DNA from: an uncultured Sulfurovum sp.
GTDB taxonomy: Bacteria; Campylobacterota; Campylobacteria; Campylobacterales; Sulfurovaceae
Length of the DNA stretch: 64,000 nucleotides
Reading direction: 5' to 3'
NCBI GenBank assembly: GCA_902727895.1
Contig: CACVAP010000059.1
Coordinates: forward strand, 1 to 64,000
The notes under the pieces are model-generated. The model did no database searches. It was not told where the DNA came from and saw nothing but the letters and a program-made list of their open reading frames with translations. Below, piece by piece: positions 668 to 11,273 of this stretch (positions within the stretch are counted from its first letter, which is position 1; each line of letters begins with the position of its first letter). Both the position numbers and the translations under genes were made by a program.

Positions 668-1315
668 TTAATTAAAGTCAAAACGAACTTTTTGTTTAGC
701 CCAAACCTTGACAGCTTGACCTTTGTATTTAGCAGGAGCAAATCGCCAAGATCTAACTCCATTAAGTGCAACAGCATCAAAAACACCAGCAGGGAACGCT
801 TCAAGTACTTGCGCTGTTTCCACACTTCCTTGTTTGTCAATCAACACATTTACAATGACATAACCTTTAATACGCTTCTTCATCGCAGCAGCTGGGTACT
901 CCATCTGAGAACGTGACAATACTTTTGGTTTAACATCAACCGTATTCCCTGTCATTACCGTGTCTTCTGAAATTTCATCCAATAAATCCGTTGCATCACC
1001 ACCAATGCTATCGGTTGCAAACTCAGGAATGTCCATGGCAATACCACTTAAACTCGCACTCAAGTTTGGCATGGGTGCTTTAGGTGGTGCTTTTTTTGGT
1101 TTCGGTTTTGGTTTAGGCTTTGACTTTGCAGCTTTTTTAACAGCTTTTTTCTCCATCTTTACATAACGGGCTTCTTTTTTAACTTTGTCTTCTTTCTTCT
1201 TAATCGGCTTATTAAACGCTACAACTAAAGCCATCATAAGTAGTCCACCCAAAAACATAAAGAAAAAGGCTTCAACAGACTTAAAGACTGTGCCATATTT
1301 TCTTCTTTGTGCCAT
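668..1315 (-). CDS. tonB: TonB energy-transducing protein
   Basis: 215 aa. One N-terminal membrane anchor (about residues 15-34), then a Lys/Pro-rich periplasmic stretch (KPKPKPKPKKAPPKAP), then a C-terminal TonB domain (about 135-215, with YPAAAMKKRIKGYVIV and SWRFAPA). TonB passes proton-motive energy from ExbB/ExbD to outer-membrane receptors. It lies 5 nt after exbD and 12 nt before the TPR gene's start codon, in one operon. The DUF3450 and TtpC-like genes upstream place it with the TonB2-type systems known from Vibrio and Shewanella. No TonB-dependent receptor is visible in this window. Confidence 0.9.
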   Translation of the reverse strand: MAQRRKYGTVFKSVEAFFFMFLGGLLMMALVVAFNKPIKKKEDKVKKEARYVKMEKKAVKKAAKSKPKPKPKPKKAPPKAPMPNLSASLSGIAMDIPEFATDSIGGDATDLLDEISEDTVMTGNTVDVKPKVLSRSQMEYPAAAMKKRIKGYVIVNVLIDKQGSVETAQVLEAFPAGVFDAVALNGVRSWRFAPAKYKGQAVKVWAKQKVRFDFN

Positions 1316-1320
1316 AAGAT

Positions 1321-1737
1321 CTATCCCATCTCTTTCGTAGTAGAAACAGCCACATCTTTAGCACCTGACATACGACACCCATCAACCACATCAATCAGTT
1401 TGTTAACAGGAATATTATCATCGGTAATCACCAAAACATTCTTTTCAGTAGCTGTTCTTAAAAGATCACGAACTTTACTCTGAATTGCCCATACTTTTAC
1501 GGGTTGGTTGTCAATATAAACTTCACCCATATTGTCAATGTAAACACGCACAATTTTAGATTCAGCCTGACTTGCTGAAGAAGCAGATGGTCGGTTAATG
1601 TCTAACTTCATGTCTTTTACAAAGGTTGTGGTTACCATGAAAAAGATAAGCAAGATAAATACCATATCAATCAATGGTGATACATCAACGTCAGTTGGGT
1701 TGTCCGTTCTTCTTTGTCTAAATCTCATGCTTTGCAT
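1321..1737 (-). CDS. exbD: ExbD-type biopolymer transport protein
   Basis: 138 aa, the usual size for ExbD/TolR. A short basic cytoplasmic N-terminus leads into one membrane helix containing the conserved Asp (VSPLIDMVFILLIFFMV, about residues 20-40), followed by a periplasmic domain. With ExbB it forms the proton-driven stator that energises TonB. The ORF overlaps the end of exbB by 20 nt; the fourth codon, also ATG, is an alternative start. The overlap suggests translational coupling. Confidence 0.9.
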   Translation of the reverse strand: MQSMRFRQRRTDNPTDVDVSPLIDMVFILLIFFMVTTTFVKDMKLDINRPSASSASQAESKIVRVYIDNMGEVYIDNQPVKVWAIQSKVRDLLRTATEKNVLVITDDNIPVNKLIDVVDGCRMSGAKDVAVSTTKEMG

Positions 1738-2344
1738 CCTTTGTGCTTAATGTATCGGCAATCTGCTCAAACTCTAAAGCAAATCTCTCCTCTTTTTTGT
1801 CTAAAATTTTTCCTAAAATAAGCCCTGGTACAGCAACAACCAATCCTAGCTCTGTTGTAAATAACGCTTTAGAAATCCCTCCAGAGATACTCGCTCCTTG
1901 TGAGAACATTGAACCTGATGTTAAAGCATCAAAGGTTTCTATCATCCCCATAACCGTTCCAAGTAACCCTACTAAAGGGGCTAAAATAACAATGGTTTTA
2001 ACCAAAGTTGAATACTTTGAAATCATTGTCATGTAAGGAAACAATGCATCATAAATATGGTTTTTAACTTTTAATCCCAACCTAGATGCCTCTCGTGTTG
2101 CCTCTAAAGCATCAGCAATGGCGTAGTCTAAAAGACCCCTCATTTTTTGTCTGTCACCACGTTTAATGTGTTTGTCAATTTGACGACGAATATTTCCCAT
2201 CGTCCCTCGTTTAAGAACTAAGTATCTATAGCCTAGTCCATACCAAAGGAAAAGGTTGAGTACAAAAAGTACCCACATTACGATTCCCCCAGCATTCATA
2301 AAGTTGACAAACATCTCTAAGTATGTTTGTAATTGATCTATCAT
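1718..2344 (-). CDS. exbB: ExbB/TolQ/MotA-family proton channel
   Basis: 208 aa with three predicted membrane helices (about 17-38, 115-138, 150-176) and the MotA/TolQ/ExbB signature region (PLVGLLGTVMGMIETF). This is the channel subunit that pairs with ExbD. It overlaps the upstream TtpC-like gene by 4 nt and ExbD by 20 nt. It is the second ExbB-family protein of the operon, which is the hallmark of TonB2/TtpC systems. Confidence 0.9.
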   Translation of the reverse strand: MIDQLQTYLEMFVNFMNAGGIVMWVLFVLNLFLWYGLGYRYLVLKRGTMGNIRRQIDKHIKRGDRQKMRGLLDYAIADALEATREASRLGLKVKNHIYDALFPYMTMISKYSTLVKTIVILAPLVGLLGTVMGMIETFDALTSGSMFSQGASISGGISKALFTTELGLVVAVPGLILGKILDKKEERFALEFEQIADTLSTKDAKHEI

Positions 2345-3663
2345 TTTGCATTGTGCTTTTCATAGATGTTAACAATATGAAGGGCACTCTGCTCCATAGA
2401 GTCTTTAATTCCTTGCGCCCAACCAGAGATTAGGTTTCCAAGTAAAAGAAGTGGAATGGCAACAATAAGACCAAACATTGTCGTAATCAGTGCTTCAGAA
2501 ATACCTCCTGAAAGCATTTTAGGGTCACCTGTTCCATACTCGGTAATCATGTCAAAGGTTGCAATCATCCCTGTTACCGTTCCCAAAAGACCAAGCAGTG
2601 GTGCAACAGCTGCTAGAACCATTACAAAGCCACCAAACTTATCAATGTGACCACTTTCATTTAAGATGTTTTCCATAACAATGTCTTCAATATGCTCACG
2701 GTCTCGTTTAATGTTTCTCAGTGTTGACTTTACAACTCTGGCTGCTGAACCTTTAAAACCTTTGATTGCTTCATACGCTTCATCACCTTCTCCATTTTCA
2801 ACTTTATAGGCAACAACTCTAGAAATCTTTTTAACGTTTGATCCAGCCCATAAAAGAATAAGTACTCTTATTACTAAAAGAAAAAGACCCAAGAGTCCAA
2901 GAGCTAAAATGATGTAACCAATAACGCCACCACCTTCAAGAATATCATCAACTGTTTTCTCTTTTTTATACTCTATCTCTTTGTCCATATTTTCATAAGT
3001 AAAGATGTCCAATGTTGGTCTCATGTCATTGGCAAACAATGCTTTAGCATCATCCGATGAACCAGCAGCATTCCATAGTTTGTAGTGTTGGTCTCCAGCA
3101 GGAGCTAAAGCACCAGCTGCTTTGTCCGAAATACCATAAGCAGCAATATTTCCAACTTTGACAATCTCACCTTCGGCTACCGAACCATTGGGTAAATAAA
3201 ATTTACCTTTTTCCGTTTGAATTGAAGAGAGCTTTGTGTATAGGTTCTCTGCATCTTTAAACGCTTGTTCCATCTTTTGAGCATTTGTTGTTTCATTGCT
3301 GTCATCAAGTGTAATGCCATATTCATCAAGCATTCCCTTCGCTTGAATCACCACTGAACCTGTAATCTCTGTATTGCCTTCTTTGTCAGTCAGTTTTTCT
3401 GAAAGCTTTTCTATTTGCGTATTTTTTACTTTAACAGCTTCATTAAGTTCCAAATACTGTTCTTGAAGTGCTTTTGTTTTCGCTTTGGCTTTGGCTAAGT
3501 CCGATTGTTGTTGTCTTTTTTCTTTATTCAATCTACTTTTTAATTCTGATTTTTGTGCCTTTAAAAAAGTATACTCTTTGTTGTAAGCATTGCTTAACTC
3601 ATCTACATGAATGGATGTTGTTAACAATAATAGTGCGACTATAACTGGGTAAAATTTGTTCAT
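2341..3663 (-). CDS. TtpC-like MotA/TolQ/ExbB protein with long coiled-coil periplasmic region
   Basis: 440 aa, much longer than a plain ExbB. A signal-like N-terminus is followed by a charged coiled coil (about 25-105), a globular linker, a first membrane helix near 245-270, and a C-terminal MotA/TolQ/ExbB core (PLLGLLGTVTGMIATFDM, about 350-370). This architecture matches TtpC, the extra ExbB-like partner required by Vibrio TonB2 systems. Its start overlaps the stop of the DUF3450 gene by 1 nt. What TtpC-like proteins contact is not settled; spanning the periplasm towards TonB is an inference from the coiled coil. Confidence 0.85.
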   Translation of the reverse strand: MNKFYPVIVALLLLTTSIHVDELSNAYNKEYTFLKAQKSELKSRLNKEKRQQQSDLAKAKAKTKALQEQYLELNEAVKVKNTQIEKLSEKLTDKEGNTEITGSVVIQAKGMLDEYGITLDDSNETTNAQKMEQAFKDAENLYTKLSSIQTEKGKFYLPNGSVAEGEIVKVGNIAAYGISDKAAGALAPAGDQHYKLWNAAGSSDDAKALFANDMRPTLDIFTYENMDKEIEYKKEKTVDDILEGGGVIGYIILALGLLGLFLLVIRVLILLWAGSNVKKISRVVAYKVENGEGDEAYEAIKGFKGSAARVVKSTLRNIKRDREHIEDIVMENILNESGHIDKFGGFVMVLAAVAPLLGLLGTVTGMIATFDMITEYGTGDPKMLSGGISEALITTMFGLIVAIPLLLLGNLISGWAQGIKDSMEQSALHIVNIYEKHNAK

Positions 3664-4433
3664 TATTTACTCTCCGATAAAATTAAAGCATTTGGAAGGC
3701 TGAAGAATCCTGTACAGATTTGTTTTTGAAGTGAGTCGAAAAGGTTAACTATTTTGGCAATGTCCTCTTTGTTACTAACTACTTTGTAGCCATAACCTTT
3801 TCCCTTTTTAATAACATAACCTACTTGGTCATCAGGTGTTGCAAAGTACATCATCACCGAACCTATTTTGGCAATCTTAGCCATTTTTGGTTCACCCTCT
3901 AACATAATCTCTTGTTTGAAAAGTCCTATCTCTTTGGTTAAACGAATGGTATCGTCATAACTTGCCCAAATAAGAAGTAAAGCTTTCTCTTCGGTTACTA
4001 CCTCATCAATAAGATTTTTTTGAAGCGTTGCCAAATCAGCCAAACGCTCTTTTGTTTTAAAAGGAATACCTTTTTCAATAATCCCTCTTAACGAATGAAT
4101 GGCATCCAATAACATTGGTTTGATACTCTTATTTTTATTAGAAGCTTCCTCAATTTTTGTTTGAACTTTTAACAATTCTAATTCAGCTAACTTAAGTGCT
4201 GTCTCTTGACGATTAATCTGTGCTTCACTGTCAGCACTTTGCATGGTATTCGATTTCATTTCAGCTTTGTAGATGTCTTTGTTATCATCAATTTTAGTAT
4301 AAAGTGCTTCTACATCAGCCCTTAATTTCATAATCGATTTAACAATATTTTCATTGTCAGCATGAAGAGATGCTGTCCCCAATGCCATACAAACTACTGT
4401 TGATAGTACTACCCTTTTATATGTTCTAAACAT
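3663..4433 (-). CDS. DUF3450-family periplasmic coiled-coil protein
   Basis: 256 aa. Signal peptide (VVLSTVVCMALGTASLHA), then a long helical, coiled-coil-rich region (about 30-140) and a small C-terminal domain ending in a PNALILSESK-like tail. DUF3450 proteins are regularly the first gene of TtpC/ExbB/ExbD/TonB operons; their role is unknown. It is the first gene of this operon, preceded by a GGAG ribosome-binding site and a four-repeat Pho-type promoter, so the whole TonB operon is expected to follow phosphate supply. Confidence 0.8.
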   Translation of the reverse strand: MFRTYKRVVLSTVVCMALGTASLHADNENIVKSIMKLRADVEALYTKIDDNKDIYKAEMKSNTMQSADSEAQINRQETALKLAELELLKVQTKIEEASNKNKSIKPMLLDAIHSLRGIIEKGIPFKTKERLADLATLQKNLIDEVVTEEKALLLIWASYDDTIRLTKEIGLFKQEIMLEGEPKMAKIAKIGSVMMYFATPDDQVGYVIKKGKGYGYKVVSNKEDIAKIVNLFDSLQKQICTGFFSLPNALILSESK

Positions 4434-4461
4434 TTACACTCCAATGTATTTTTATACTTTT

Positions 4462-4517
4462 ATACTATTACGAACTGGTAACAAGAAGGGAACAGTATGA
4501 TTACAAATCGGTTACAT
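4462..4517 (-). promoter_or_regulatory. Pho-box promoter of the TonB operon
   Basis: Read on the minus strand, four consecutive 11-nt repeats: ATGTAACCGAT (4517-4507), TTGTAATCATA (4506-4496), CTGTTCCCTTC (4495-4485) and TTGTTACCAGT (4484-4474). A 6-nt spacer then leads to the -10 hexamer TAGTAT (4467-4462). There is no good -35 box; the last repeat occupies that position, as in PhoB-activated promoters. Confidence 0.8.
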
Positions 4518-4627
4518 AATTTAAAATAAAAAAGTTTGTTTCACATAGCTATTTAAAGCTCAATGAAGAAGTTTAAAAAAGTTTATAAATGAGGTTATGA
4601 AAGTGATGAAAAAGAGAGTTTAGAAGT

Positions 4628-4655
4628 TGTAGGTAAGTCATAAAACTTACCTACA
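4628..4655 (-). terminator. Hairpin between the lipoprotein gene and the TonB operon
   Basis: Perfect 11-bp inverted repeat, TGTAGGTAAGT / ACTTACCTACA, with a 6-nt loop, 24 nt past the stop of the lipoprotein gene. A clear T-run does not follow immediately, so it may be a weak or structure-only terminator. Confidence 0.55.
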
Positions 4656-4678
4656 TGAAAAGTATAAGTAAAGAATAT

Positions 4679-5833
4679 CTACTTCGTATTGCCTGTTCCA
4701 GCATCAAACTTAGCTTCAATATCAACTGAGTTTCCACCATCTGAATGGTCTGTAAATTTATTATCCGTAGAAGTACCACTAAGCGTAACATTCTCAAAAG
4801 AAATATTTGCAACTGTTGCAATACCCTGAGAATGAATCGTACCAGCACCATCCGTTGAGTTGTCTGTTACTGTACCATTTTTAAAATGTCCACCAACACC
4901 ATCTTTCTTAAAGAAAATACCACCCTCTTTTACTGAACTTGTCTGAGTAATGTTAAATCCATCAAAAGTCGCAGCTGTTGTACCTGACATCTCAATGGCA
5001 GCATTTCCAGTACTTTGTGTAATGGTTAAATCACTTACCGTACCAGCGTAACCATCGTCAATATCAAAGTGGTCATCTGTACACTCTGAAACCATAATGT
5101 TACTCATATTTACCGTACCACCCCATGCTTCGATACAGTCATCATCTGACTTAGTCACTGTAATGTTATCAATGGTTGTACCAGAACCAACACCGACAAA
5201 ACTAAGACCATTAATTTCTTTGTCTGTCTCCATAGTAATACCTGAGTTTAAAATCTGAACATGTTTTAAGATTCCAGAGCTGTCTGTTAAATCAGAATCA
5301 TCAGCACTGTAAGCAGAGTTCACTTCGTACGCTTGTACTTGGTCATTTCCAGCTTTACCAATAAGAGTCAAACCACCCCATTGACCCACAGCTGCTGTTC
5401 CACCGTCATATGCTGTTTCCGATGTAAAAACGATGGGTTGCGCAGAAGTACCTTCAGCCATAATCTTTGCACCTTTGTCAACAATCATATAAGAAGTATT
5501 GTCTCCTGTACCATCTTTACCAACAATGGTTGTTCCAGCTTCAATGGTTAAAGTAGCCCCGTCTGTTACCGTTACCAAACCATCTAACACCCATGTTGTA
5601 TCCGAAGTTAAGGTCATATCACTGCTAATGTCTCCAGCTAAAGTCTCTTTTGGATTGCTCACGGTTGTGTCTGTATTTGTATCTGTGGTATCAGTGCTAT
5701 CATCTGTTGCACTGTCATTGTAAATATAGACTTGATTAGGAGAGTTTTTATCTTGGTCAATACAACCAGTAAAAATTACACTCCCTATAAGTAGCGAACT
5801 TAATGCTATGACTTTTCTCTGTTTTATTAACAT
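4679..5833 (-). CDS. Beta-helix-like surface or periplasmic lipoprotein (paralog 1)
   Basis: 384 aa. Lipoprotein signal with lipobox IFTGC, so the mature protein would start at Cys24. A Thr/Asp-rich linker (about 40-62) is followed by a body of short, repetitive Gly/Asp/Thr strands (LTIEAGTTIVGKDG, IDNITVTKSDDDCIEAWGG, DDHFDIDDGYAG) that looks like a right-handed parallel beta-helix. Acid clusters such as SDDDC and DDHFDIDDG could bind calcium or another cation. I do not recognise a named family or enzyme. Most of the body is nearly identical to the downstream paralog at 6024-7136. It has its own Pho-type promoter, suggesting induction at low phosphate. Confidence 0.7.
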   Translation of the reverse strand: MLIKQRKVIALSSLLIGSVIFTGCIDQDKNSPNQVYIYNDSATDDSTDTTDTNTDTTVSNPKETLAGDISSDMTLTSDTTWVLDGLVTVTDGATLTIEAGTTIVGKDGTGDNTSYMIVDKGAKIMAEGTSAQPIVFTSETAYDGGTAAVGQWGGLTLIGKAGNDQVQAYEVNSAYSADDSDLTDSSGILKHVQILNSGITMETDKEINGLSFVGVGSGTTIDNITVTKSDDDCIEAWGGTVNMSNIMVSECTDDHFDIDDGYAGTVSDLTITQSTGNAAIEMSGTTAATFDGFNITQTSSVKEGGIFFKKDGVGGHFKNGTVTDNSTDGAGTIHSQGIATVANISFENVTLSGTSTDNKFTDHSDGGNSVDIEAKFDAGTGNTK

Positions 5834-5862
5834 ATATACTCCAATGTAAAATTTAATACTTT

Positions 5863-5918
5863 ATAGTAATATGTAGTGGTAACAAGAAGGGAACACATTG
5901 ATTACAATATGATTACAA
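5863..5918 (-). promoter_or_regulatory. Pho-box promoter of beta-helix lipoprotein 1
   Basis: Minus-strand repeats TTGTAATCATA (5918-5908), TTGTAATCAAT (5907-5897), GTGTTCCCTTC (5896-5886) and TTGTTACCACT (5885-5875), then 6 nt, then -10 TACTAT (5868-5863). The last two repeats and the leader near ACATTGGAGT resemble the TonB-operon promoter closely, suggesting the two control regions share ancestry. Confidence 0.8.
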
Positions 5919-6023
5919 GGGAGAAGTTTTAGAACTACTATGTTTCAAATATTGACACATGAGTCCCATAGAAGAGTAAAAAAATCACTCTCCTATTATC
6001 AAAGTTATTATTAGAAAAATAAA

Positions 6024-7136
6024 CTATTTGCTATTTCCTGAGCCAGCATCAAATTTTGTTTCAATGTCAGCTGAGTTTCCACCATCATCATGGTCTGTAA
6101 ATCTGTTGTCTGCTGATGAACCCGTCAACGTAACATTTTCAAATGAGATATTTGCTATTGTTGCTGTACCTTGAGAATGAATCGCCCCAGCACCATCAGA
6201 AGAGTTGTCTGTTACAGTACCATTTTTAAAGTGTCCACCAATACCATCTTTTTTAAAGAATAAACCACCCTCTTTTACTGAACTATTTTGAGTAATTGTA
6301 AAGCCATCAAAAGTAGCAGCTGTTGTTCCTGACATTTCAATAGCAGCATTACCAGAAGTTTGTGTAATGGTTAAGTTACTTACTGTACCAGCATAACCGT
6401 CATCAATATCAAAGTGATCATCCGTACACTCTGAAACGCTAATATTACTCATGTTCACTGTACCACCCCATGCTTCAACACAATCATCATCGGATCTGCT
6501 TACGGTAATGTTATCAATGGTTGTACCTGAACCAACACCCACAAGGCTAAGACCATTAATCTCTTTGTCCGTTTCCATAGTAATACCAGAATTTAAGATT
6601 TGTACATGTGTTAATATACCAGAACTGTGTGTTAAGTCAGCATCCGTAGCTGCATAAGCAGAATTTACTTCATACGCTTGTACTTGATCATTTCCAGCTT
6701 GACCAATAATGGTTAAACCACCCCATTGACCAACAGCAGCCGTTCCACCATCAACAGCAGTTTTTGAAGTAAAAATAATAGGACTAGCAGCTGTACCTTC
6801 AGCCATGATTTGAGCGTCATTATCAATAATCATGTACGAAGTATTATCACCTGTACCATCTTTACCAGCAATGGTTGTTCCAGCATCAATTTTTAACGTT
6901 GTCCCTTTAACAGCCACTAAACCATCAAGAATCCAAGTTTTGTCAGCCGTTAACTGTGTACAAGTAGTAATGTCACCACTTAATGTTGTTGAAGAAGGTA
7001 TTGTGTACGTTGAACATACTGAGGTATCTGTATCTGTGTCCGTACTTGTTGTTGAAGATGAAGAACTTCCTCCACCACATCCTGTAAATAATAATGCTGC
7101 TGTTGCAGCCGAAAGTAAAATATTTGTTGCTTTCAT
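6024..7136 (-). CDS. Beta-helix-like lipoprotein (paralog 2)
   Basis: 370 aa. Lipobox LFTGC (Cys20) followed by a Gly/Ser/Thr/Asp linker and the same repetitive beta-helix-like body as the neighbour at 4679-5833. The two differ mainly in the first 60 residues. The shared motifs DDDC.EAWGGTVNMSNI and CTDDHFDIDDGYAG are conserved in both. Tandem duplication with retained acidic motifs suggests a binding function rather than decay. No catalytic signature is recognised. It is divergent from the OlsF-type gene, with abutting Pho-type repeats in the shared intergenic region. Confidence 0.7.
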   Translation of the reverse strand: MKATNILLSAATAALLFTGCGGGSSSSSTTSTDTDTDTSVCSTYTIPSSTTLSGDITTCTQLTADKTWILDGLVAVKGTTLKIDAGTTIAGKDGTGDNTSYMIIDNDAQIMAEGTAASPIIFTSKTAVDGGTAAVGQWGGLTIIGQAGNDQVQAYEVNSAYAATDADLTHSSGILTHVQILNSGITMETDKEINGLSLVGVGSGTTIDNITVSRSDDDCVEAWGGTVNMSNISVSECTDDHFDIDDGYAGTVSNLTITQTSGNAAIEMSGTTAATFDGFTITQNSSVKEGGLFFKKDGIGGHFKNGTVTDNSSDGAGAIHSQGTATIANISFENVTLTGSSADNRFTDHDDGGNSADIETKFDAGSGNSK

Positions 7137-7165: not shown

Positions 7166-7221
7166 ACTTTAAACTTAATTAGTAACAGACAAAGAACAAA
7201 AGAAACAAAATTTGATTACAA
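7166..7221 (-). promoter_or_regulatory. Pho-box promoter of beta-helix lipoprotein 2
   Basis: Minus strand: TTGTAATCAAA (7221-7211), a degenerate unit (7210-7200), TTGTTCTTTGT (7199-7189) and CTGTTACTAAT (7188-7178), then 6 nt, then -10-like TAAAGT (7171-7166). Three of four units keep the 11-nt phase. It is the weakest -10 of the group. Confidence 0.65.
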
Positions 7222-7223
7222 AG

Positions 7224-7257
7224 CTGTTTCTAACTTGTTATCAAACTATTTTATAAT
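7224..7257 (+). promoter_or_regulatory. Pho-box promoter of the OlsF-type gene
   Basis: Plus-strand repeats CTGTTTCTAAC (7224-7234) and TTGTTATCAAA (7235-7245), then 6 nt, then a consensus -10 TATAAT (7252-7257). It begins 2 nt past the opposing Pho box, so one cluster of regulators could serve both genes. Confidence 0.75.
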
Positions 7258-7292: not shown

Positions 7293-9002
7293 ATGATTAA
7301 TGTACAAGCATCTCTTATCAATAAGTACCCACAAGTAGAAACCATACCCAAACCTCTACGCCTACCATTTTTCTCTGCTATCAAAAAAATCATACATGAA
7401 AATGATATTAATATTTTTTTAGAAGAAAAACGTTATGCTGGACCTTTTACCTTTGTAGAGTCTGTTTTAGACCATTTTAACTTTTCCTATAAGTTCGCAT
7501 CAAACCAAATTGAAAACATTCCAGCTACAGGACGTGTGGTGATTATTGCAAACCATCCTTTAGGTGCTTTGGATGCACTTTCATTAATTCACTTAGTTAA
7601 ACGGGTAAGATCTGACATCAAAGTAGTTGCCAACGATATTCTTTCAAACATAGAACAACTCAAACCCATACTTGTAGGTGTCAATACCTTTGGCTCAACC
7701 CTCTCAAAAGATTCCGTTAAACAAATTTCAGATGCCTTAGAAAATGAAGAAGTGTTAATTGTTTTTCCATCGGGTGAAGTATCACGAGCAGGTGCCAATG
7801 GCATTAAAGATACCCAATGGCAAAAAGGCTTTCTAAAGTTTGTAAACAAAAGTAAATCAGCCATTGTTCCCATACATATCAATGCGAGGAACTCCACACT
7901 GTTTTACACCCTCTCTTCTTTGAACAAAAGCTTATCAGCCATTTTATTGGCGCATGAGATGTTTAAACAAAAAGAGGGCTCACTTGAATTTACTATCGGT
8001 GAAAGTATTCCTTATAAAAACTATAAGAATTCTCTTTTAGATACCAAATCTCAAGTCAAACTTTTTAAAAAACATCTCTACCGTATTGCCAAAGGTAAAA
8101 AACCTATTTTCAATACGCAAAAATGCATTGCCCATCCAGAAGATAGAGTCGCACTCAAACAAGAACTAAAAAACTCTCAACTTTTAGGGAAAACCAATGA
8201 TGATAAAAAGATTTATCTTTATGAATATGAGCAAGGCTCTATTGTCCTTCAAGAGATAAGCCGACTGCGTGAATACAGTTTTAGGAAAGTAGATGAAGGT
8301 ACTGGTAAAAAAAGAGATAAGGATGAATATGACTACTACTATAAACACATTATTTTATGGGATGATGATGCTTTAGAGATTGTAGGTTCTTATCGTATTG
8401 CTGAAAGTAATTTTGTACATGAATACTACGGAGTAGAAGGGTTTTATACCAACACTTTATTTAGATTTGACGAACAATTTGAGCCCTATCTAAATAATTC
8501 TGTTGAACTTGGTAGAAGTTTTGTGCAACCTAAATATTGGGGAAGTAGAGCTTTAGATTATCTTTGGCAAGGCATCGGTGCGTACCTAAATGAAAATCAA
8601 CATATTAAATATCTCTTTGGTGCTGTCACACTTAGTGGAACTATGAATCATAATGCCCAAGAGTTAATTCTTTATTATTACAATAAATACTATGGCAATA
8701 AACAAGAGCTACTCAATCCAAAAAATGAATTTAAATTTATGCAAAACAATCTAGATGATTTAGCCTCTATTTTTCATGCAGACAATGCAAGAGAAGACTT
8801 CATTGTTTTACGAGAGCAATTAGCCTATTATGGCGTGAGTGTTCCAACCCTCTACAAACAATATGCTGACTTATGTGAAGAAGACGGTATCTCTTTTATG
8901 GGGTATAACATAGACAAAGATTTTGAGAATTGTATAGACAGTTTTATTTTGGTAGAAGTTGATAAAATGAAAGAGAAGAAACGGAAGCGTTATATTAAGT
9001 AG
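7293..9002 (+). CDS. olsF: OlsF-type bifunctional acyltransferase for ornithine-lipid synthesis
   Basis: 569 aa with two acyltransferase parts. The N-terminal PlsC/OlsA-like domain carries NHPLGALD (87-94) and FPSGEVSRA (about 158-166). The C-terminal GNAT/OlsB-like domain (about 300-530) has LREYSFRKV and VELGRSF. This fusion is the arrangement of OlsF, which N-acylates ornithine and then O-acylates the product to make phosphorus-free ornithine lipids in the inner membrane. In several bacteria this replaces phospholipids under phosphate limitation, and a two-repeat Pho-type promoter lies directly upstream. A related hemolysin-like acyltransferase with another acceptor is possible, but the neighbourhood favours ornithine lipid. 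Confidence 0.8.
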   Translation: MINVQASLINKYPQVETIPKPLRLPFFSAIKKIIHENDINIFLEEKRYAGPFTFVESVLDHFNFSYKFASNQIENIPATGRVVIIANHPLGALDALSLIHLVKRVRSDIKVVANDILSNIEQLKPILVGVNTFGSTLSKDSVKQISDALENEEVLIVFPSGEVSRAGANGIKDTQWQKGFLKFVNKSKSAIVPIHINARNSTLFYTLSSLNKSLSAILLAHEMFKQKEGSLEFTIGESIPYKNYKNSLLDTKSQVKLFKKHLYRIAKGKKPIFNTQKCIAHPEDRVALKQELKNSQLLGKTNDDKKIYLYEYEQGSIVLQEISRLREYSFRKVDEGTGKKRDKDEYDYYYKHIILWDDDALEIVGSYRIAESNFVHEYYGVEGFYTNTLFRFDEQFEPYLNNSVELGRSFVQPKYWGSRALDYLWQGIGAYLNENQHIKYLFGAVTLSGTMNHNAQELILYYYNKYYGNKQELLNPKNEFKFMQNNLDDLASIFHADNAREDFIVLREQLAYYGVSVPTLYKQYADLCEEDGISFMGYNIDKDFENCIDSFILVEVDKMKEKKRKRYIK

Positions 9003-9097
9003 TTGGCTTTTAAATAAGCTAACTAAGACCTCACTCTTCTGAAGTGTGATTAAGTAAAAAGTAGTTATTGATGTATAGAAAGTAGGCGTTAAATAAA

Positions 9098-9166
9098 CTA
9101 TTTAACAGTTCGTGCGAGTAAAAATACAATCGTCCAAAACAGTGGGATGATAAGATTAATATCCAT
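9098..9166 (-). CDS. Putative 22-aa single-helix membrane peptide
   Basis: ATG to TAG, 22 codons: MDINLIIPLFWTIV then FLLARTVK. One hydrophobic segment followed by a basic tail is the shape of small inner-membrane regulatory peptides. AAGGAG lies 8 nt before the ATG. A consensus -10 TATAAT preceded by two Pho-type repeats is 29 nt upstream, overlapping the end of phoB-like coding sequence. I recognise no family. The combination of promoter, ribosome-binding site and membrane-like sequence makes translation plausible; coding at this length cannot be proven from sequence alone. Confidence 0.6.
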   Translation of the reverse strand: MDINLIIPLFWTIVFLLARTVK

Positions 9167-9194
9167 TGTGATGCTCCTTATGTTGATATGTAAG

Positions 9195-9228
9195 ATTATA
9201 TAAAAAATAGATAACAAATGAATAACAT
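9195..9228 (-). promoter_or_regulatory. Pho-box promoter of the 22-aa ORF
   Basis: Minus strand: ATGTTATTCAT (9228-9218) and TTGTTATCTAT (9217-9207), a 6-nt spacer, then -10 TATAAT (9200-9195). It starts just past the stop codon of the response regulator gene, so the small ORF has its own promoter as well as possible read-through. Confidence 0.75.
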
Positions 9229-9232
9229 TTTG

Positions 9233-9916
9233 TTACACCAATTTATAACCTACATTACGAATAGGAACCAGATATTCTTTTTCACCTGTTGGGTCTATTT
9301 TTTTCTTTAATCTACTGATGGTTACATTAATGGTTTTTTCATGAAAGTCCATTCCTTCATCATGCCATACTTCTTCTCTTAGAAAGTCACGTTCTAAAGC
9401 TTGATTTGGGTTCTTAATAAAAGTATATAAGAGTTCAAACTCTAAATTTGTAAGTTCAATGGCTTCGCCAGTAATGGAAATTTCATGCTTTTTAATATCC
9501 ATAACAATGTCACGATGTTTAAGTTTTTCACTTTGAAGAGCACCTGAGCGTTTTAAAACGGCTTTAACCCGTAATATTAACTCTTTAGGACTAAAAGGTT
9601 TTGTCATATAATCATCAGCACCTCGTTCAAAACCCTCTTCAAGGTCAGACTCTTTGTCTCTTGCTGTTAAAAAAATAACGGGGATAGTATAACCAAGGGA
9701 ACGAAGCTCTGCGACAAACTCTGAACCTTCAACATTGGGTAAGTTTCGATCAACAATCATAAGTGCAGGATTTTCTTCTTCTAAAAACTGTTCAACATTT
9801 TCTGTGGATAAAAAGCCCATGGTTTCAAACCCTGCTTTTTGTAAATGATATTCAACAAGCTCTAAAATATCTTCTTCATCTTCTATAATTACGATCTCTA
9901 AGGATTGATTTTTCAT
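9233..9916 (-). CDS. phoB: PhoB-like OmpR-family response regulator
   Basis: 227 aa from the ATG at 9916. Receiver domain (about 1-120) with the acidic pair EDEED, phospho-acceptor Asp in MIVDRNLP, LTAR and MTKPF; winged-helix DNA-binding domain at the C-terminus (about 135-227, ending RNVGYKLV). A longer ORF opens at 10003, but the extra 29 residues are hydrophobic and unlike any regulator, so the shorter start is preferred. Its own promoter carries the same 11-nt repeats as its neighbours. No sensor kinase adjoins it, so the PhoR partner must lie elsewhere. The PhoB identity rests mainly on the surrounding Pho-type promoters. Confidence 0.8.
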   Translation of the reverse strand: MKNQSLEIVIIEDEEDILELVEYHLQKAGFETMGFLSTENVEQFLEEENPALMIVDRNLPNVEGSEFVAELRSLGYTIPVIFLTARDKESDLEEGFERGADDYMTKPFSPKELILRVKAVLKRSGALQSEKLKHRDIVMDIKKHEISITGEAIELTNLEFELLYTFIKNPNQALERDFLREEVWHDEGMDFHEKTINVTISRLKKKIDPTGEKEYLVPIRNVGYKLV

Positions 9917-9922
9917 AAAATA

Positions 9923-9956
9923 ATTGTAACATACAATGGTAACGAAATGATAACAG
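9923..9956 (-). promoter_or_regulatory. Autoregulatory Pho-box promoter of the response regulator
   Basis: Minus strand: CTGTTATCATT (9956-9946) and TCGTTACCATT (9945-9935), a 6-nt spacer (GTATGT), then -10 TACAAT (9928-9923). Only 6 nt separate the -10 from the ATG, so a transcript started here would be leaderless or nearly so. Confidence 0.75.
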
Positions 9957-10074: not shown

Positions 10075-11196
10075 TTAGAATTTATAAATCATATCTAACT
10101 GTACACGCTCGTAATCAGCATCTACATCTGAACTACTTTTACTTTCATAGATTTCATTGAAGAAAAAGTTCCCTGCAAGATAAAGGTTTTTACCTGCTTT
10201 GAATTTTCCTCTAATTGCATGACCCTTCGCAGCTGTACCACCACCAAAATTATCTGAATCTGAATATGCACCAAGTACTGCATCTTCTTGAAGCTCAGTA
10301 TACGAGTACTTAACTTGCCAATCTCCAACTTTTTTAGCTTTACCTAATTGAGCTGCTACGTCGTAACCAAAGTTATTGTCGTCTGCACCAAAGTTGTATG
10401 CCACACCTGCTGCAAGTTTTAATGGTTTACCAAATACACTTTTAAGTTGTAGCTCGGCAAATCCTTCTACAAGATGGTAATCATTACTATACTCATCATT
10501 TGCATCTAAGCTATTTCCTTTTCTGCTACCAAAGAGTGTTGAATTCCCTTTAAGACCATCATAAATATAAGCACCTGCACCTAAATTAAGTTTTCCAGCA
10601 TCTACTTTTGTTTTGTGTACATATTGAGCTATTAAAAGATTCACATCGTCCTTTGCAATTGATGCTTCCTCTAATGTTGGTTGATTAATACCTAAAGTAA
10701 CTAACTTGCTATCATCTTTATATTGGTAATTTACCCCATTCATTGAAATATCATTATCCCAAACAAGTTGTGACTTAATAGGTCTATACATCATGTAAGG
10801 CTGTCTACCTATTTTGTATTTAGCATTATCAGACTTGTAAGACAGACCTAAGATATTAAATCTTAATGATTGCCAAAAGTAGTCACTCAAAGGTTGGTCA
10901 TCTTCAAAAGTTTGGTTACCCGAGGTTGGATTGGCAAAACCAGATCTCATACCCGACTCAAAAGTAAGATTATCAGTTAGGTCAACATTTAAACCTAATC
11001 TTAAACGATATCTATTTCTATACTTATTGTCTTTATCGTCTCTTTCGATACTCTCATATCTAAGTCTTAAGTCACCTTTAGCATGAATTCTGTCAAACAT
11101 AGTATTCTCAGCTTTCTCAACTGCTGCTGTTGTTACAGCTGTATCTGCTAACATAATTGTACTTAATGCGATGGTCGATAATAAAATTTTTCTCAT
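10075..11196 (-). CDS. Outer-membrane porin, probably phosphate-stress induced
   Basis: 373 aa. Signal peptide (LLSTIALSTIMLADTA), then repeated amphipathic strands with aromatic girdles and a C-terminal aromatic residue (LDMIYKF), the pattern of a 16-18-strand beta-barrel. Segments such as GDLRLRYESIERDD and YKIGRQPYMMYRP resemble Campylobacterota alginate-export/OprO-P-like barrels. Substrate is not readable from sequence; the three-repeat Pho promoter suggests anion or phosphate-ester entry under phosphate limitation. Confidence 0.7.
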   Translation of the reverse strand: MRKILLSTIALSTIMLADTAVTTAAVEKAENTMFDRIHAKGDLRLRYESIERDDKDNKYRNRYRLRLGLNVDLTDNLTFESGMRSGFANPTSGNQTFEDDQPLSDYFWQSLRFNILGLSYKSDNAKYKIGRQPYMMYRPIKSQLVWDNDISMNGVNYQYKDDSKLVTLGINQPTLEEASIAKDDVNLLIAQYVHKTKVDAGKLNLGAGAYIYDGLKGNSTLFGSRKGNSLDANDEYSNDYHLVEGFAELQLKSVFGKPLKLAAGVAYNFGADDNNFGYDVAAQLGKAKKVGDWQVKYSYTELQEDAVLGAYSDSDNFGGGTAAKGHAIRGKFKAGKNLYLAGNFFFNEIYESKSSSDVDADYERVQLDMIYKF

Positions 11197-11228: not shown

Positions 11229-11273
11229 AGTATAAAACAAAATGGTTACAAAATGATTACACAATGATTACAA
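11229..11273 (-). promoter_or_regulatory. Pho-box promoter of the porin, clearest example
   Basis: Minus strand: TTGTAATCATT (11273-11263), GTGTAATCATT (11262-11252) and TTGTAACCATT (11251-11241), almost identical consecutive 11-mers, then 6 nt (TTGTTT) and -10 TATACT (11234-11229). This is the cleanest set and gives the working consensus TTGTAATCATT. Confidence 0.85.

Follow-up and report, generated by a model that had tools for sequence, protein, structure and literature searches.

A candidate 22-residue Pho-regulon membrane peptide from a Sulfurovum-like genus of the Campylobacterota

The DNA analyzed here (a stretch of 64,000 nucleotides from an uncultured Sulfurovum sp., referred to as the window) contains, past the gene for a PhoB-like regulator, a micro-ORF of 22 codons that is, judged from its sequence and from that of its relatives, very probably a real protein-coding gene under Pho control. 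We suggest, with a probability of roughly one half, that its product would be a phosphate-starvation-induced, single-pass peptide of the inner membrane that tunes a larger, phosphate-saving membrane protein, with the ornithine lipid synthase OlsF, or the remodelled membrane, as the first candidate. The expression signals and the reading frame are arranged as follows:

9211..9227, minus strand: Pho box TGTTAT-N5-TGTTAT, an 11-bp repeat with the spacer TCATT, an exact match to the Pho promoter pattern
9195..9200, minus strand: -10 hexamer TATAAT, 10 nt past the second Pho repeat and 28 nt upstream of the ATG
9174..9179, minus strand: Shine-Dalgarno (SD) sequence AAGGAG, 7 nt upstream of the ATG of the micro-ORF
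9098..9166, minus strand: micro-ORF of 22 codons plus stop, encoding MDINLIIPLFWTIVFLLARTVK

Read along the minus strand, TGTTATTCATTTGTTATCTATTTTTTATATAATCTTACATATCAACATAAGGAGCATCACAATG is followed by the 22 codons for MDINLIIPLFWTIVFLLARTVK, which extend from the ATG at 9164-9166 to the TAG stop codon at 9098-9100. An earlier note on this DNA had described a Pho box, a TATAAT hexamer, an AAGGAG sequence and an ORF lined up past the regulator gene, and each of these elements was recovered at its place; the note had given no strand for them and had left the convergent gene downstream, olsF, unnamed. A further, imperfect copy of the repeat, TGTAAC at 9232-9237, shares bases with the stop codon of the regulator gene. 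The leader, about 20-28 nt long, is unstructured in RNA folding and leaves the SD sequence exposed. With its 22 codons the ORF is too small for gene finders; it has no match in Pfam or NCBIfam, nor in Rfam at the position of the ORF, and a six-row profile of the peptide matched no solved chain in the PDB.

The promoter was assessed with a scoring matrix trained on 13 Pho promoters from which the micro-ORF site had been left out. This site reaches 22.0 bits and ranks seventh among all positions of the 64-kb window; the six higher-scoring sites, five of which belonged to the training set, all precede other genes of the same cluster, and the maximum in ten simulated 64-kb sequences was 15.4 bits. 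The exact pattern TGTTAY-N5-TGTTAY-N10-TANAWT occurs only twice in the 2.96-Mb draft genome, in the promoters of the micro-ORF and of pstC, so that the dedicated two-repeat Pho promoter claimed in the earlier note is well borne out. Allowing up to two mismatches, the same geometry is present in the genome of the window before the regulator gene, olsF, pstS, pstC, an ankyrin-repeat gene and further genes of the cluster, and with TATAAT as the -10 hexamer it also lies upstream of pstS in five relatives. The micro-ORF thus has the Pho box in place of the -35 element and the fixed distance to the -10 hexamer that characterize the Pho regulon, with a spacing equal to that of the pstS, olsF and regulator promoters. 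Its distance between -10 hexamer and start codon (28 nt) compares with 27-36 nt for most other Pho genes of the genome, the regulator gene having a shorter one. A search for Pho promoter, SD sequence and ATG combined gave 27 matches in 175 genomes of the family and none for the reversed control. The promoter is absent from the list of a generic sigma-70 scanner, as is to be expected because in a Pho promoter the Pho box replaces the -35 element.

Relatives of 22-23 aa are present in six of the 34 genomes of the genus, the genome of the window (G000) included. A tblastn search with the 22-mer in 175 genomes of the family yielded four of them, all within the genus of the window, and a further one was found promoter-first, directly behind an 81-aa Pho gene and with an additional Pho promoter of its own:

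G016, MDLYYIVPIFWTLLFLLAKTIK: tblastn E 9.9e-6, 59%
G013, MEINFIIPIFWTVVFLIAKLMSK: tblastn E 1.0e-5, 65%
G024, MEAYFIIPIFWTIVFLFASRVK: tblastn E 3.7e-4, 62%
G009, MDIYFMIPIIWLSIFALARTIK: tblastn E 0.004, 55%
G011, METYILIPLLWSLIFFVLVHTSK: recognised by its Pho promoter, SD sequence, length and K terminus; E only 0.77 by profile search

M1, P8, W11 and F15 are invariant in the six members, which are also alike in their acidic second residue, hydrophobic core and basic tail. A strong SD sequence (AAGGAG or AAAGGAG) lies at the equivalent place in each of them, a few bases before the ATG, and in five (G000, G016, G013, G024 and G011) a dedicated Pho promoter precedes the ORF, whose start codon is found 28-30 nt past the -10 hexamer. 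The Pho box of G013 is weaker (7.7 bits, inside the chance range), yet its spacing is identical. The G009 peptide directly follows the 81-aa gene, which bears the Pho promoter there, and is probably cotranscribed with it. ORF and promoter are hence conserved together, which is what the earlier note had proposed to look for in relatives. It had also proposed an analysis of synonymous over nonsynonymous changes: nucleotide identity by codon position (1/2/3) is 58/81/52%, and pN/pS is 0.53 as compared with 0.87 in column shuffles (as low in 5 of 1000 shuffles), a value that is biased downward in that the relatives had been found by protein similarity. The shared start, SD sequence, length and promoter were not used to find the first relatives and are free of this bias. 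Together with the conserved amino acids and the synonymous excess, to which the ascertainment bias applies, they give the six members the features of a protein-coding microgene. Conservation was judged on the protein and its promoter because a nucleotide search with a 216-nt region was uninformative, as it returned only short, AT-rich chance pieces.

The family has a patchy distribution inside one genus. On the tree of the regulator, the presence of the peptide requires six changes, and it has therefore been lost or moved repeatedly. Weak profile matches in other genera (E 0.0086 at best in the family and 0.0027 in the order) were rejected, as the loci inspected were without the combination of Met start, SD sequence and motif; how far the family extends past its genus was judged by profile searches, and the search of the order at E<=0.02 would miss a divergence like that of the G011 member.

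The genes that accompany the micro-ORF in the window are these:

9233..9916, minus strand: gene for a PhoB/OmpR-family response regulator (Pfam Response_reg and Trans_reg_C)
9923..9955, minus strand: Pho promoter of the regulator gene itself, one mismatch, 31.1 bits, in the training set
10075..11196, minus strand: gene for a Porin_5 outer-membrane porin (PF16930) of the same Pho cluster
11229-11261: Pho site of the Porin_5 gene, 28.5 bits, outside the training set
7293..9002, plus strand: olsF, encoding the bifunctional ornithine lipid synthase and facing the micro-ORF in convergent orientation (783.6 bits with NCBIfam NF052615, cut-off 620)
7225..7257, plus strand: Pho promoter of olsF, one mismatch, start codon 35 nt downstream
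9000..9025, strand unassigned: inverted repeat between the micro-ORF and olsF, overlapping the olsF stop codon and forming a stem in the RNA fold

The best NCBIfam match of the regulator is TIGR02154 (PhoB; 179.6 bits, under the cut-off of 296.2). Its named relatives are headed by a protein of a Sulfurovum sp. MAG, in agreement with a Sulfurovum-like organism. In G013, the orthologous gene comes after pstB and phoU, all on one strand, and in five genomes the regulator gene is succeeded by a Pho box and pstS; from this genomic context, it is probably the PhoB/PhosR-type phosphate regulator of the genus. The inverted repeat might serve, on slender indications, as a shared terminator of the micro-ORF and olsF; a terminator scan detected none at this position.

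All six neighbourhoods of the peptide are phosphate-starvation contexts that hold Pho genes. The order is regulator, peptide and convergent olsF in G000; pstB-phoU-regulator, ankyrin-repeat gene, peptide and convergent olsF in G013; and a PlcP-like metallophosphoesterase gene, an ankyrin-repeat gene, the peptide, convergent olsF and the start of a PstC-like gene in G016. In G024 the peptide follows psiE, and in G009 and G011 it follows the 81-aa gene, with a glycosyltransferase gene and a PlcP-like gene further upstream in G009. The convergent olsF gene thus adjoins the peptide in three of the six members (G000, G016 and G013, as opposed to G024, G009 and G011). As a gene of the genome, olsF is present in all six peptide-bearing genomes (in G013 and G024 as fragments at contig ends) as compared with 11 of the 34 genomes of the genus, a co-occurrence with a hypergeometric probability of 0.0003 when kinship is left uncorrected; corrected for kinship, there are too few independent pairs to call the association significant. 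Five genomes possess olsF and no detectable peptide (G031, G032, G001, G007 and G003, the last with a distant OlsF), and the peptide is therefore not needed for OlsF. In G031, the closest relative, two olsF copies lie in the same orientation (L148 1693-3405 and 4887-6617; G031:C58), and the place of the micro-ORF past the regulator gene is taken by a gene for a PiT phosphate permease.

The ankyrin-repeat gene and the PlcP-like gene were considered as better partners than olsF and rejected, since each of them occurs in only some of the peptide-bearing genomes. The former, present in 7 of the 34 genomes, encodes a 170-aa family that is Pho-promoted in the genome of the window (L302, G000:C6:314) and elsewhere adjoins olsF or the peptide (L145 2575-3084, L146 470-988). 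Given olsF, and the plcP-like and glycosyltransferase genes nearby in some relatives, the context points to the synthesis of phosphorus-free lipids at least as much as to transport. The modulator of a transporter, channel or sensor kinase that the earlier note had suggested is a hypothetical role. One study (PMC5193443) states that OlsF and Agt matter for low-phosphate growth in Desulfovibrio and notes agt homologues in Sulfurovum.

The peptide itself consists of one hydrophobic helix segment with a basic C-terminus. The hydrophobic helix and basic tail noted earlier recur throughout the family: GRAVY values range from 1.28 to 1.47, and in all six members the N-terminal end carries a charge of -1 (the acidic residue 2) and the C-terminal end one of +1 or +2. 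This single hydrophobic segment with asymmetric charge is typical of small single-pass membrane proteins, the spanning length being marginal; the core, some 16 residues long and with a proline at position 8, would barely suffice to cross the membrane, which counts against a membrane-spanning reading. Most small proteins with a single helix and a known function bind a larger protein of the membrane, and we consider it fairly probable that the peptide acts in this way as well.

In the mechanism that we envision, the PhoB-like regulator, encoded immediately upstream by a gene that is itself Pho-promoted, would in its phosphorylated form respond to phosphate shortage by inducing a short mRNA. The ribosome-binding site of this mRNA is very strong, and the 22-residue peptide would be translated from it. 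The peptide would insert into the inner membrane as one short helix, with its acidic N-terminus probably outside and its K/R tail inside, an orientation suggested by the positive-inside rule, the acidic residue 2 and the basic end. There it would most likely bind a larger inner-membrane protein of the phosphate-saving response and tune its activity or stability, the first candidate being OlsF, or else the membrane in which OlsF makes ornithine lipid. We favour this target, and place feedback on phosphate signalling or uptake second, because olsF is the most consistent companion of the peptide and is itself Pho-promoted. That the partner is OlsF or another lipid-remodelling enzyme can be put forward only tentatively, and the more specific notion that the peptide activates, stabilizes or localizes OlsF, or gates its use, while phospholipids are being replaced is a conjecture with perhaps a minor chance of being right.

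A feedback or connector peptide, the helix of which would bind the phosphate sensor kinase, the Pst/PhoU complex or another kinase in the manner of MgrB with PhoQ or as proposed for YoaI with EnvZ, is unlikely. The position of the micro-ORF directly behind the regulator gene in the window and its vicinity to pstB-phoU-phoB in G013 speak for it, as does the example of YoaI, a PhoB-regulated protein of 34 aa that activates EnvZ-OmpR (PMC11853020). However, the peptide is not adjacent to the regulator gene in the four other members, no kinase gene lies beside it in any of the six, and regulators of the PhoB/OmpR family are found in all 34 genomes of the genus whereas the peptide is confined to six. 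Less probable still is a helper of the bulk membrane that would have no protein partner and would adjust the packing or curvature of membranes in which ornithine lipid or a glycolipid replaces phospholipids. The strong SD sequence and promoter suggest abundance, the conserved proline, tryptophan and basic tail fit positions at the membrane interface, and lipid-remodelling genes are near (convergent olsF in half of the members, plcP-like or glycosyltransferase genes in G016 and G009); yet a generic lipid-packing helix would not require residues as specific as the invariant P8, W11 and F15, and the family is small and limited to one genus although lipid remodelling is widespread.

The size and hydrophobicity of the peptide fall into the range that is covered by type I toxins, but a toxin-like peptide induced by phosphate starvation is very improbable. 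A scan of the peptide members for an antisense promoter that could serve an antitoxin RNA gene revealed none that is conserved over the ORF (a 10/12 match occurs only in G000; elsewhere there are 9/12 matches at other places or none), the short leader leaves the SD sequence exposed, and there is one copy of the peptide per genome. The chances are slighter again for the reading in which the locus makes a small RNA under Pho induction, perhaps directed at the mRNA of the convergent olsF gene, and the ORF is incidental. The convergence with olsF in three genomes and hairpins past the stop codon in several members would suit such an RNA; three members, however, are not beside olsF, and Rfam has no match at the ORF. 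A small RNA would be expected to conserve sequence outside the ORF, while here identity is 64% over the ORF and falls to 31%, near background, in the 3' flank, with codon positions 1 and 2, start, stop and SD sequence being kept. The outcome that the earlier note had named as pointing to a small RNA, a conserved promoter with an ORF that is not, is thereby contradicted. As for a relic, in which the leftover Pho promoter of a lost gene would precede a chance ORF, the slot behind the regulator gene does hold other Pho genes in relatives (a Pho box and pstS in five, the PiT permease gene in G031 and G007, the PlcP-like gene in G009, G011 and G032), but the six-member family contradicts it, with G016, G013, G024 and G011 encoding the same peptide elsewhere, each time under a Pho promoter of its own, and this idea can be dismissed.

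Several other Pho-promoted genes were encountered. The 81-aa protein, which has its own Pho promoter and precedes the 22-23-aa peptide at L298 (G011:C139) and L144 4963-5265 (G009:C67), matches nothing in Pfam; it is likely another unannotated Pho gene and possibly a functional partner of the peptide. A soluble-looking family of 69 aa (MNDELWISSKKLEDLAQELAKTFSLDEEEAMGLVYEEWDLVEDLF...HTYRIA), for which no Pfam family scores above cut-off, lies directly behind an exact Pho promoter in six genomes of the family that belong to genus g10 (L276, L277, L278, L280, L281 and L282); possibly related to it is a 68-aa ORF that adjoins the peptide in G016 (L113 2231-2434). A Pho-like promoter also precedes a malate/lactate-dehydrogenase-like gene (MAKGKKVTVIGTGNFGSTVAFILAMNG...), an unexpected Pho target, in two genomes (L238, G000:C65:20825-20857; L283, G001:C29:9387-9456). 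Within the window, a minus-strand cluster at 668-7136 encodes TonB, an ExbB-like protein, a DUF3450 protein and two secreted beta-helix-like proteins; with Pho promoters before the DUF3450 gene (4462-4494) and both beta-helix-like genes (5863-5895 and 7166-7198), it looks like a Pho-induced, TonB-energized uptake or surface system.

A stress-regulon microprotein of only 22 residues can be recognised without experiment here because the geometry of the Pho promoter and the SD sequence mark it. The promoter-first search also gave the unannotated, Pho-driven small proteins of 69 and 81 aa in the family, and several small components are therefore probably overlooked when the phosphate-starvation genes of these Campylobacterota are annotated. 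An action of the peptide on OlsF or on the remodelled membrane would mean a further level of regulation in the synthesis of phosphorus-free lipids, a trait of wide ecological weight, and a helix acting on OlsF would be the first microprotein dedicated to lipid remodelling in bacteria; with signalling as its target, the peptide would instead provide a parallel to YoaI in a distant phylum.

Short single-pass helices that stabilize or tune a larger membrane protein are known from KdpF, CydX and AcrZ, and several subunits of this type are encoded in the operon of their partner; compared by description, the peptide differs from them in having its own promoter and changing neighbours. MgrB, likewise a protein with a single helix, is produced under the control of the regulon whose kinase it holds in check; it is longer than 22 aa and has a periplasmic part. 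Regulators of the MgrB type (the MgrB-PhoQ pair is cited in PMC6194859) are a possible working model, again by description, with no link to a kinase gene found for the peptide. Lipid remodelling under Pho control by OlsF and by PlcP-Agt (PMC9239053, PMC5193443) shares both the stimulus and the neighbourhood with the peptide; these are enzymes, unlike the peptide, and the available parts of the two sources mention no small protein. YoaI of Escherichia coli (34 aa), which is transcribed under PhoR-PhoB and has been proposed as a connector that activates EnvZ-OmpR (PMC11853020), is likewise small and Pho-controlled, and its sequence also has a hydrophobic core. It exceeds the 22-23 aa of the peptide and stems from a different phylum and context; BLASTP gave no match between the two at E<=100 and a profile comparison a probability of 0.5%, values that do not place the peptide in the YoaI family. 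YoaI is nevertheless its closest functional precedent, one without similarity in sequence. The statement of the earlier note that nothing like the peptide was known therefore holds with respect to curated families but not for the kind of protein, of which the PhoB-controlled YoaI is an example. In our view, the peptide appears to represent a new family of Pho-regulon microproteins, found so far only in one Sulfurovum-like genus, of a kind that is itself known.
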